Below, in pieces: positions 14,105 to 16,819 of a stretch of 37,850 nucleotides of DNA (the stretch's first letter is position 1; every line of letters starts with the position of its first letter). The notes under the pieces are model-generated. The model saw only the letters and a list, made by a program, of their open reading frames with translations. It did not search any database and was not told the DNA's origin. The position numbers and the translations under genes were made by a program. Where the stretch lies: positions 1 to 37,850 of the forward strand of contig JANLHZ010000101.1 of NCBI GenBank assembly GCA_024653775.1, given 5' to 3'. The DNA is from Planctomycetota bacterium. GTDB lineage: Bacteria; Planctomycetota; UBA8742; JACQVU01; JANLHZ01.

Positions 14105-16384
14105 TCAGTGAAGGAAGTGCCGCATCCCCGTGAAGAGCATCGTGATTCCGTGCTTTTCGCACGCTTCGCGAACTTCGTCGTCGCGCTTAGATCCGCCGGG
14201 CTGGATGACGAATTTCACTCCAGCCGAGGCGGCAAGCTCGATCGAATCCGCGAACGGGAAGAACGCGTCCGATGCGAGTACCGCGCCTTGCGCCTCGTCT
14301 TTCGCGCGTTCGAGCGCGATCTTCACCGCGTCCACCCGGCTGGTCTGCCCGCCGCAGGAAGCGAGCAGCCGTTCGTCCTTCGCGAGCACGATCGCGTTCG
14401 ACTTCACGTACTTAACGCACAGCCACGCGAAATGGATCGCACGCGCATCCTCCTCCGAAGGCGCCGCGCCGACGACAACCTCAGGCGAACCATCGGCATA
14501 CACCGCGGCGTCCACGCTCTGCATCAGCCGGCCGCCGTCGATAGACCGTATTTGCATCGAACTCGATCCGTTCCCTGTTCCCTGTTCCCTGTTCCCTGTG
14601 CAGAGCAGCCGCACGTTCTTCCCCCATGGCCGGCGCGTAGTCAGGGCGTGGACCGCGTCGTTAGAGTACGAGGGCGCTATGACGACTTCGAGGAAGCTGC
14701 CTTTCTCGCTCATCGCCTCCGCGGTCTGTAGATCGATCTCCCGGTTGACAGCGACGATTCCGCCGTATGCGCTCACCGGATCGCACGAGAGCGCGACCGC
14801 GTACGCTTCCGATAGCGTTTCCCGCGTCGCGACTCCGCAGGGCGTGAGGTGCTTGATGATCGTCGCGGTGGGCCGCTCGAACTCCCGGACGAGCCGAAGC
14901 GCCGCGTCCGAGTCGAGGTAGTTGTTGTACGAAAGCTCCTTGCCCGACAAAAACTCCGCGTGCGCGAGCGTCCCCGCGGTTCCGGGACCAGTATCGCGCA
15001 GCAGATAGCCGATCTGATGCGGATTCTCGCCGTAGCGGAGTTTTTTGTACGGGAGATTGACCGCTGGGACCGCGGACGTCTCGTCCGCATCGACTTTGGG
15101 ACCGCGGACGTCCTCGTCCGCACTAACTTCGGGATCGCGGACGTCCCCGTCCGCATGATTAAAGAATACATCTCCCCATTGCCAATCTTCCGCTCTGGAT
15201 ACTAGTCCCGCCTTTACTGGATTCTGTCTGATGTAATGAATGACGTCACTATAATGTCCCTCGTTTCGAACAAACCTGTCGAAATAGTCGGGTGACCAGA
15301 AAGATCCTTTACGATCGAGTATTTTATTCGCTTCGTGGGCAGTGAACGACTTCCAGTTTTTAACAACTTCCGGAAGTGGATGTCCTTCAAAGGTTCGAAT
15401 CAGCACGTGAACGTGGTTTGGCATTATGCACCAGGACACGAGTCGATATTTCGTTCCGTCACCGTGCAGCAGCGAATTCTGAATAACTTTAGCAATTTTC
15501 GGATTCGAAAGATGACATTCTCCGTGCCCAGCATCCTCATAGGCTTCGACTTTTTCTCTAAGCGCCCTGGCTGCCTCGGAATCCGACTGCGAACTTTCAT
15601 TGAAAGCCAGTTCCTTTTTCCAGGCTGACACTACATCTGCCGGGAGAGAATCTCCAAGTCTGAACGTGATGAATTGATAGACGTTTCCAGCGTCGAAGTT
15701 ATGGAGATAACCACGGCTGTGATGTCCTTTGGATTTCAACTGCTTTGGAGTAAGCGCGTCCGTTCCGGACGCATCATGCGGACGAGGACGTCCGCGGTCC
15801 CAATCGAGTCCCACGAGCTTCGCGAATATCGCCTCGTCGTACCGACTTGTACGGTAGAACGCCTTCAGTGCGAGCTGTCTTCGCTGCTCTTGAATCGCGC
15901 TTTCGTCTTCGCTGCGGAGCGCCAGGATCACCGCTTCGTAATCCTCCGGACCTACGACGACGGTCACGAATGCGTGGTTCTTCGCCGCGCTGCGGATCAT
16001 CGAAGGCCCGCCTATGTCGATGTTCTCGATCAGTTCCGCGAAGTCGTCGGACCTCGCCGATACCTCCTCGAAGGGATAGAGGTTCACGCAGACGACGTCG
16101 ATCGACCAGCCGTCCATTGATTCGAGAGCCTGTACGTGTTCGTGCGAGTCCCTTCGGTACAGGATCCCTCCGTGGACCTTCGGGTGCAGAGTCTTCACGC
16201 GACCTTCCATCATCTCCGGGAATCTGGTGTAGTCCGCGACCTCGACGACCTCTATCCCCGCCGTCGCGAGAGCCTTCGCGGTCCCACCGGTCGAGAGTAT
16301 TTTGTACCCGAGGTCCGCCAGCGCCTTCGCGAAGTCTGTAACGCCTGTTTTGTCGGAAACGGAAATCAGCGCCGCTCTTGTCAT
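14105..16384 (-). CDS. purH: Bifunctional purine enzyme PurH (AICAR transformylase/IMP cyclohydrolase) with in-frame RAYT transposase insertion
   Basis: PurH does the last two steps of IMP synthesis. Start ATG 16384 has GAGGGG just upstream and gives 759 residues, against roughly 530 for normal PurH. Residues 1-192 are the IMP cyclohydrolase part (STGGTAKAL, GRVKTLHPKVHGGIL, IENIDIGGPSMIRSAAKN). Residues 441-759 are the transformylase part (LRYGENPHQ, SGKELSYNNYLDSDAA, IIKHLTPCGVA with the Lys-His pair at 511-512, KSNAIV, ASDAFFPF, VIQPGGSKRDDEV, RHFLH). Between them, exactly where normal PurH has a short linker, lie about 245 residues of a REP-associated tyrosine transposase with its flanking repeats. 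There is no stop or frameshift. It is not an intein: splice-junction residues are absent. A second, small insertion encoded by four GTTCCCT repeats lies near residues 597-606. Both PurH halves look intact, so I expect activity. Confidence 0.93.
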   Translation of the reverse strand: MTRAALISVSDKTGVTDFAKALADLGYKILSTGGTAKALATAGIEVVEVADYTRFPEMMEGRVKTLHPKVHGGILYRRDSHEHVQALESMDGWSIDVVCVNLYPFEEVSARSDDFAELIENIDIGGPSMIRSAAKNHAFVTVVVGPEDYEAVILALRSEDESAIQEQRRQLALKAFYRTSRYDEAIFAKLVGLDWDRGRPRPHDASGTDALTPKQLKSKGHHSRGYLHNFDAGNVYQFITFRLGDSLPADVVSAWKKELAFNESSQSDSEAARALREKVEAYEDAGHGECHLSNPKIAKVIQNSLLHGDGTKYRLVSWCIMPNHVHVLIRTFEGHPLPEVVKNWKSFTAHEANKILDRKGSFWSPDYFDRFVRNEGHYSDVIHYIRQNPVKAGLVSRAEDWQWGDVFFNHADGDVRDPEVSADEDVRGPKVDADETSAVPAVNLPYKKLRYGENPHQIGYLLRDTGPGTAGTLAHAEFLSGKELSYNNYLDSDAALRLVREFERPTATIIKHLTPCGVATRETLSEAYAVALSCDPVSAYGGIVAVNREIDLQTAEAMSEKGSFLEVVIAPSYSNDAVHALTTRRPWGKNVRLLCTGNREQGTGNGSSSMQIRSIDGGRLMQSVDAAVYADGSPEVVVGAAPSEEDARAIHFAWLCVKYVKSNAIVLAKDERLLASCGGQTSRVDAVKIALERAKDEAQGAVLASDAFFPFADSIELAASAGVKFVIQPGGSKRDDEVREACEKHGITMLFTGMRHFLH
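14570..14597. repeat. Heptanucleotide tandem repeat (GTTCCCT x4) inside purH
   Basis: Four perfect head-to-tail copies of GTTCCCT occupy 28 bases within the coding sequence of the transformylase domain. On the coding strand they encode GNREQGTGN, placed where other PurH proteins have a shorter loop after the VRLL strand. Similar short tandem heptamers are known in other bacterial genomes as mobile or slippage-prone repeats; here the reading frame is kept. Confidence 0.8.
15065..15799 (-). mobile_element. REP-associated tyrosine transposase (RAYT, Y1/HUH) embedded in purH
   Basis: This covers residues about 196-440 of the PurH fusion. The transposase core is about residues 222-406, with the family pattern in order: RGYLHNFDAGNVYQFITFRL, DSLP, CIMPNHVHVLI (HUH histidines H324 and H326), WKSFTAHEANKIL, FWSPDYFDRFVRNEGHY, VIHYIRQNPVKAGLV (predicted nucleophile Tyr384, by comparison with E. 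coli TnpA-REP) and EDWQWGDVFF. All catalytic residues are present. The transposase has no ATG of its own near its start; the nearest candidate is TTG at residue 216. Palindromic repeats lie in inverted orientation at both ends (15777-15801 and 15066-15155) and are translated as part of the protein. The element seems to have entered as a repeat-transposase-repeat unit. It may now be made only as part of PurH. Confidence 0.9.
15066..15155 (-). repeat. Triple array of GCGGACG hairpin repeats
   Basis: Three near-identical units of about 24-25 bases lie at 15066-15089, 15098-15122 and 15131-15155, separated by 8 bases. Each reads GGGA(C/T)C then the hairpin GCGGACG-(TCT, TCCT or TCCC)-CGTCCGC, then A. 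The stem is invariant here and the loop varies. They lie at the 3' end of the embedded transposase and are translated within PurH (DVRDPEV, DVRGPKV, DETSAVP region). Confidence 0.88.
15757..15801 (+). repeat. Hairpin plus GCGGACG repeat at the 5' end of the embedded transposase
   Basis: The unit at 15777-15801 is TGCGGACGAGGACGTCCGCGGTCCC, the inverted counterpart of the three units at 15066-15155. It is preceded by a perfect 7-bp hairpin GCGTCCG-TTC-CGGACGC (15757-15773). The same two-hairpin plan appears at 27199-27252 and 29110-29163, with different sequence in the first stem. Confidence 0.8.
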
Positions 16385-16819
16385 AGCGTGCCCCTCACTT
16401 TGACCCTTCGCCCTGAAGGCGAGGTAATTCAAAAACGAAAATTCGAGCATACATCCTTACCGGAGCCATGCGAAAACGAGTTTGTTAATTTTGTTACCAA
16501 ACACTCGCTGGGCTTGGTCGTACTCCCGCGGATCGTCAATTCACTATAGTTAGTTGTCATGACGCTTCCGCGACTCCAGAAATCTCAGCGGAACTTCAGC
16601 CAACAATAAACTACAGGCTGAGTTACGCCGCCATTCATGCTAACGTGGTGATCGTAAGCCCTCAAAAAATGCTTCGCAGGCGAAATGTTCGTTATCGCCT
16701 GCATAGATAATTGTCTAACAAATGTCGAACGAACGTTCGAATTGATGGAACGAAAATTGCGTGGTGACTAAATAATAACGAAGAGTCATAATTCCACCAG
16801 TTAAGCCGAGGAAAAAAAC
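16385..16819. other. 435-base intergenic region between divergent purH and the hydrolase lipoprotein
   Basis: No gene found. Visible structures are a partial hairpin just upstream of purH (CTTCGCC...GGCGAG, about 16405-16422), an 8-bp inverted repeat GCAGGCGA/TCGCCTGC (16676-16702), and a dyad CGAACGAACGTTCG (16726-16739). Both divergent promoters must lie here, but I cannot place -35/-10 boxes with confidence. Confidence 0.5.
16726..16739. promoter_or_regulatory. LexA-box-like dyad upstream of the hydrolase lipoprotein
   Basis: CGAACGAACGTTCG fits every position of CGAAC-RNRY-GTTYG, the pattern of Gram-positive-type LexA operators. It lies 81 bases before the start of the 1583-residue lipoprotein gene, a plausible operator position. 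One such match could be chance, and other repressors use similar dyads. Whether this organism's LexA uses this box is unknown. Confidence 0.3.

Follow-up and report, generated by a model that had tools for sequence, protein, structure and literature searches.

A complete REP-associated tyrosine transposase (RAYT; REP, repetitive extragenic palindrome) sits in frame in the interdomain linker of the bifunctional enzyme PurH in a Planctomycetota bacterium. The gene lies in a stretch of 37,850 nucleotides (positions 1 to 37,850 of contig JANLHZ010000101.1, assembly GCA_024653775.1), herein called the window. An initial annotation of the window had proposed this arrangement, and it is confirmed by an open frame of 759 codons, by family matches, and by alignment with homologues. 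A reading of the fusion as a one-off is not supported, as many genomes show the same architecture in host genes other than purH. The insert is likely a REP/RAYT module that forms part of one PurH-RAYT-PurH polypeptide and represents one case of a recurrent in-frame residence at permissive sites.

Architecture of the purH-RAYT composite gene

The frame crosses the insert without stop or frameshift, as annotated, and the window contains zero N bases (Table 1). Pfam places the MGS domain at residues 15–127 and Y1_Tnp at residues 312–388, and the AICARFT/IMPCHase domain is split in two pieces. The composite still scores above the curated cut-offs for PurH, with 635.7 bits for NF002049 (cut-off 402) and 540.2 bits for TIGR00355 (cut-off 528). 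Conserved residues are present in both domains, and the active-site columns of the PurH alignment, e.g., K511–H512, are conserved. Family scores and conserved columns thus bear out that both PurH parts are intact; the halves are set apart by 250 residues. Among the 19 PurH homologues aligned with the composite (20 rows in total; 21 of 29 homologous loci were retained by the extraction filter), the linker at the insertion point is short and variable. No second purH was found in the draft genome (331 contigs, 96.11% complete, 2.78% contamination), where PF01808 matches the composite gene only, in two pieces.

An upstream ATG at 16450, which gives a protein of 781 amino acids, was rejected as the start codon; the aligned PurH homologues start at about 16384. 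Within the transformylase half, a repeat of seven bases, GTTCCCT, occurs in four copies at 14570–14599 of the minus strand and adds TGNREQGTGN (residues 596–605) in frame. Near-copies of this repeat are found at two other places in the genome.

Table 1 Features of the purH-RAYT composite gene, in positions of the window
Feature	Position	Strand	Basis or remark
purH-RAYT composite reading frame, 759 codons and stop	14105..16384	minus	open frame, Pfam, NCBIfam
IMP cyclohydrolase (MGS) half of PurH, residues 1-192	15809..16384	minus	Pfam and PurH alignment
In-frame insert, residues 193-442, 750 nt, remnant of native linker included	15059..15808	minus	PurH alignment
AICAR transformylase half of PurH, residues 443-759, KH motif 511-512	14108..15058	minus	Pfam and PurH alignment
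RAYT (TnpA_REP-like) domain	15176..15721	minus	match to profile of alignment A1
HUH motif MPNHVHV, residues 321-327 (H324, H326)	15404..15424	minus	RAYT alignment
Catalytic tyrosine motif YIRQNP, residues 384-389 (Y384)	15218..15235	minus	RAYT alignment
TTG codon 216, possible internal RAYT start	15737..15739	minus	no GGAG/AGGA/GAGG in preceding 20 bases
REP, 5' side of insert	15777..15803	.	27-nt perfect inverted match to 15096-15122
Three tandem REP hairpin units, 3' side of insert (purH-C side), spacing about 33 nt, translated in frame	15065..15155	.	

The RAYT insert

The catalytic residues H324, H326, and Y384 are kept at the positions initially assigned to them, and both the HUH residues and the tyrosine are invariant across an alignment of 17 RAYTs. 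The REP_Tyr_transpos family NF047646 is matched with 80.7 bits by the protein, barely past the cut-off of 80, and with 83.3 bits in the genome search. The TnpA_REP structure 4er8 is matched at 2e-5 and, with the profile, at 4.3e-10. No splicing (intein) domain is present among the Pfam and NCBIfam matches of the composite at E<=0.001. The GC content at third codon positions (GC3) is 0.46 in the RAYT versus 0.76 and 0.79 in purH; hence, the insert is foreign in composition, and its residence in purH is probably recent.

As annotated, the RAYT has no ATG near its start, and none is found in frame in codons 150–300. A TTG at codon 216 directly precedes the conserved stretch KGHHSRGYL. The earlier suggestion that the RAYT is produced solely within PurH is therefore likely but, given this TTG, not certain.

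REP hairpins around the insert

All REPs around the RAYT are read through in the purH frame. As DNA, the REP unit is predicted to form a hairpin of 7 base pairs (z -3.05). The REP pattern yields 185 matches in the genome (100 forward, 85 reverse) versus 0 for the reversed control pattern; the pattern is almost palindromic, some places are counted on both strands, and the true number of places is below 185. The foot of the hairpin is neither GTAG nor GTGG, the bases before it being TTGGGACC; GTAG or GTGG is found ahead of some of the repeats of other nested RAYTs. With inverted REPs on both sides and dispersed REP copies, and lacking the foot tetranucleotide, the PurH insert is REPtron-like with a deviant foot.

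The genome holds four RAYTs at E<=0.001. At the three other loci, of 3.4 kb each, the REP core of the PurH insert is absent, and repeats of their own are seen by eye. Among the loci examined, 61 distinct REP places gave 13 frame entries with at least 70 open codons on both sides, three of which belong to purH. By eye, only one further locus, L014, resembles a real gene with an in-frame REP; hence, most REPs of the genome are not coding. In L014, around 1508 (minus), the REP follows in frame soon after an apparent signal peptide of a long protein, likewise by eye. At loci L022, L024, L025, L026, and L028, several contigs of the genome start within an element that is longer, contains the REP, and has GATAGTTTCTTAG or a close variant as its end; L026 starts with the complementary CTAAGAAACTATC. 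With such ends and such a start, the element resembles a miniature inverted-repeat transposable element (MITE) or REPIN with terminal inverted repeats.

Copy number and assembly

No other copy of the RAYT of the PurH insert was found in the genome. When the insert region was compared with 56 other loci of the same genome, the longest exact match was 28 bases. BLAST of the insert, with 40 of 263 candidate places scored, likewise gave a longest exact match of 28 bases; imperfect matches were longer, reaching 94 query bases at 81%. REPs form the ends of some contigs, and two such contigs have exactly 99 first bases in common, which suggests an assembler word length (k) near 99. Because the insert has no more than 28 bases of exact sequence in common with the other places compared, a misjoin mediated by REPs is unlikely. 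Elsewhere in the assembly, the two arms of contig C180 (L092, L093) were compared over 4,900 bases and are each other's perfect reverse complement, which is probably an assembly artefact.

Nested RAYTs in other genomes

In 40 relatives, RAYT matches frequently lay in very long frames, which on reading showed a host enzyme on both sides. The set for the class comprises 20 genomes and 33 RAYTs scoring E<=1e-25, of which 17 lie inside host genes and 16 outside. The hosts are FabZ (10), AlaRS (4), PurH (1), an FAD-monooxygenase/flavin oxidoreductase (1), and an N6/N4 methyltransferase (1). As far as the sequence reaches, the frame is unbroken in 14 of these 17 nests; nine of the FabZ frames were aligned. 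The broken ones are the FabZ nest of genome G019, which contains an N run, and the AlaRS nests of G008 (frameshift in the host) and G017 (in host and RAYT). The four genomes with an AlaRS nest each yielded a single AlaRS. Two sites hold REP-like hairpin DNA but lack a RAYT, namely the AlaRS site of G013 (GGGCGTCCCGCCC) and, with a weaker hairpin, the FabZ site of G009. In several class members (L230–L235), AlaRS also carries a variable in-frame stretch in the catalytic domain near profile position 262–270, which looks unlike REPs.

In named genomes, the best 80 of 505 confirmed RAYT loci were inspected. Of these, 15 are nested, with host sequence continuing in frame before and after the RAYT, and DNA methylase or restriction genes account for 13: the hosts are 10 DUF1156 methylases, of which one contains two RAYTs, two type III-like methylases, one MmeI-type enzyme, SpoU (1), and a WYL regulator (1). 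Pfam was run for 13 of the 15 hosts; L108, L139, and L169 were assigned by eye from their likeness to scanned proteins, and the methylase match of L169 is sub-threshold only. Two further loci, L143 (contig end) and L144 (host frame ending 48 residues on), are treated as nested in the ATG count and the tree described below and are not part of the 15. The record titles of these genomes include Chloroflexi, Chthonomonadales, Methylococcaceae, Bacteroidales, Kiritimatiellae, and Acidobacteria. The frame with two different RAYTs is that of a DUF1156 methylase of a Methylococcaceae bacterium (L127:4344-8636).

In a sample of the phylum, at least 53 of 392 genomes contain a match at E<=1e-40, with at least 91 matches in total; these counts are lower bounds, with at most 8 candidates scored per genome. 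Outside the class there are at least 58 RAYT matches, 12 of them with open frames of >400 residues. Of these 12, seven are nests, with one helicase and otherwise Eco57I/MmeI-type or DUF1156 enzymes as hosts; the other five have host sequence on one side or lack a second host part.

Evolution of the nested state

In a tree of 111 RAYTs, nested members are scattered. The non-nested label requires 11 changes on the tree, at least nine of them on strongly supported branches; hence, nesting arose repeatedly. The PurH RAYT is grouped with two methylase-nested RAYTs and one that is not nested. RAYTs at the FabZ site form two groups. Between G017 and G008, the synonymous difference per site (pS) is 0.20 for the FabZ parts and 0.58 for their RAYTs, which indicates that the occupant of the site changes.

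An in-frame ATG near the RAYT start is present in 10 of 33 nested RAYTs versus 46 of 72 others (Fisher p 0.0016; the RAYTs are related, and the rows of the test are not independent). With GTG and TTG starts included, the counts are 23 of 33 and 63 of 72. These counts cover 105 of the 111 RAYTs, as L133, L151, L159, L167, L214, and L215 had no anchor motif and were dropped. Inverted repeats of at least 14 nt occur at the flanks of 18 of 32 nested RAYTs, 34 of 70 others (L215 included), and 0 of 93 control flanks. Because the first two rates are similar, flank repeats fail to separate nested from solo RAYTs. In the FabZ set (36 pairs), the median ratio of nonsynonymous to synonymous differences (pN/pS) is 0.34 for the nested RAYT and 0.15 for the host, which suggests that the protein sequence of the nested RAYT is under constraint.

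Structure prediction

The composite was modelled with AlphaFold2, as the initial annotation had proposed. The input was a PurH-only alignment (A5); the insert was modelled from one sequence, so its low confidence carries no meaning. Alignments A2 (PurH and RAYT rows) and A4 (split rows) were discarded, as PurH rows fell on RAYT columns. The model, with a mean predicted local distance difference test score (pLDDT) of 70.9 and a predicted template modeling score (pTM) of 0.49, has confident PurH parts and an insert of low confidence. Hence, the placement of the PurH halves and the insert relative to each other is unreliable. A Foldseek search with this model returned PurH structures, and ForH is fitted by the first domain with a template modeling score (TM) of 0.83–0.84. 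For a FabZ-RAYT model (pLDDT 61.9), the best Foldseek match is TnpA_REP 4er8 (1.4e-5), followed by a weaker match to FabZ.

Proposed explanation and alternatives

In the preferred explanation, a REP/RAYT module (REPtron) would have entered the interdomain linker of purH, the RAYT and its flanking REPs being read in the purH frame and probably translated as a single polypeptide. The PurH domains would fold normally and carry the RAYT as an extra domain on REP-encoded linkers, with its HUH motif and tyrosine intact. We infer that a stable fusion is produced, that PurH and RAYT are both functional, and that the REPs were moved by the RAYT. In other genomes, nests of this kind have arisen many times within the loops and linkers of other enzymes. 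REPs in such loops and linkers may serve as landing places for the entry or exchange of RAYTs. Within a needed enzyme, loss of the RAYT frame by frameshift or stop would harm the host, and nesting would, as a hypothesis, give the element an advantage in persistence. More broadly, REP transposases may have a second way of life as nested domains in REP-marked loops: they would give up their own start, be expressed via the host gene, be exchanged at their sites, and be shielded where the host is essential and single-copy, as in PurH and AlaRS. This would be a niche like that of inteins, without splicing. The broader proposal is tentative, its chances of being right lying somewhat short of even.

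Several observations weigh against this explanation and its extension. Restriction-modification methylases are non-essential. In all 10 genomes with a FabZ nest, the host is a second copy beside a complete FabZ; with these second copies and the dispensable DNA methylase hosts, nesting occurs without a need for essentiality. Protection by an essential host gene, as initially suggested, therefore fits PurH and AlaRS, for which single copies were found, but not the FabZ and methylase hosts. Two of the four AlaRS nests contain frameshifts, possibly sequencing errors. The search of relatives for the same insertion brought up nests in other host genes, but the PurH nest itself was detected, among the matches listed, in one of the 371 genomes that carry the domain and could be a short-lived accident. 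Eighteen of these 371 genomes have two PurH-domain matches, and the other 17 show no RAYT-sized in-frame gap between the halves of one PurH. From its GC3, the RAYT looks recent in purH, where any long protection would be hypothetical, and the TTG at codon 216 may provide a weak start of its own. As to the constraint, pS is near saturation, the constraint may be older than the nesting, and pN/pS does not tell purifying selection from RAYT activity inside the nest. Finally, solo RAYTs are not clearly broken more often than nested ones: among class RAYTs, an internal stop is found in 2 of 16 solo versus 1 of 17 nested members, too few to separate them.

The alternatives differ widely in probability. 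It is very improbable that the assembly joined a RAYT from elsewhere into purH via shared REPs. The draft consists of 331 contigs, several ending at REPs, and contains errors such as C180; however, the 28 shared bases are far below the 99 of the REP-ended contigs (k presumably near 99), no second copy of the RAYT was found, the frame is held over both joins, and comparable nests occur elsewhere in long contigs, namely a FabZ nest in a 2.45-Mb contig of G017 and one in a restriction-modification enzyme in a 1.9-Mb contig of G178. Separate expression of the RAYT from the TTG at codon 216, which stands at the expected place, or an inactive PurH in a cell auxotrophic for purines, is unlikely: no Shine-Dalgarno–like run precedes the TTG within 20 bases, a product from it would carry the C-terminal half of PurH as no stop intervenes, and the PurH motifs are conserved.

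More serious is the view that the RAYT is a chance passenger, i.e., that REP/RAYT modules insert widely, gene-breaking cases are lost, and the in-frame remainder is what is seen, with no benefit to the element. It falls only just short of an even chance. Host selection alone accounts for in-frame survivors within genes, the foreign GC3 and the single PurH occurrence suit a young insertion, 16 of the 33 class RAYTs are not nested, and the accessible texts of PMC3733652 and PMC6006769 give the same account for REPs in loops inside genes. On the other hand, 17 nested of 33 looks high given the need for the right strand, frame, and loop, and the RAYT protein seems constrained and its own ATGs depleted. 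A recruitment by the host, in which the fused RAYT would be an adaptive new protein that brings a nuclease to PurH or serves the REP population, draws on the intact catalytic motifs, the apparent constraint on the RAYT part in the FabZ set, and the term domesticated applied to RAYTs in the accessible part of PMC8266576. It is nevertheless a poor candidate, as PurH, AlaRS, FabZ, the oxidoreductase, and the methylases have no function in common, the RAYTs found at one and the same FabZ site do not share vertical descent, and the insert in PurH seems to be recent.

Relation to known systems and significance

REPtrons, i.e., TnpA_REP/RAYT genes between inverted REPs, have in common with the PurH insert an HUH/Y1 transposase, REPs at both ends, and many genomic copies of these REPs. 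The known ones are free-standing, whereas the PurH case shares the reading frame of the housekeeping gene that contains it and is without an ATG. REPs located inside genes are described in the accessible part of PMC3733652, and that of PMC6006769 reports in-frame REPs inside tnpA_REP genes of subclass 2.4 and cites REPs in loops of other proteins. As far as these texts go, such REPs and the palindromic elements of Rickettsia are likewise in-frame palindromes in loops and linkers of unrelated proteins, but their insert is a short palindrome and that of PurH a whole transposase. Subclass 2.4 similarly demonstrates that REP-coded peptides are tolerated in frame; its nesting is the reverse, with the REP within the transposase instead of the transposase within a host. 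The same paper put aside 'unexpectedly long' TnpA_Y1 proteins as gene fusions or annotation errors. These may include nests of the PurH-RAYT kind, of which the accessible text gives no description. Inteins with homing endonucleases resemble the composite in being mobile nucleases translated within an essential host protein. They differ in having a splicing domain, which Pfam and NCBIfam do not match in PurH-RAYT, and in occupying conserved active sites instead of variable linkers.

A search of the open-access PubMed Central literature, which omits most subscription papers, brought up no account of a host enzyme with a RAYT nested in its frame. In-frame nesting of RAYTs is recurrent and apparently undescribed. 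For the annotation of metagenomes it calls for caution, since 'overlong' housekeeping proteins can be real composites and not errors, and it provides natural examples of large catalytic domains inserted into essential enzymes. It also bears on the long-term upkeep of RAYTs, which are mostly single-copy and without ordinary transposition, and suggests that single-copy transposases could persist as part of a needed protein.

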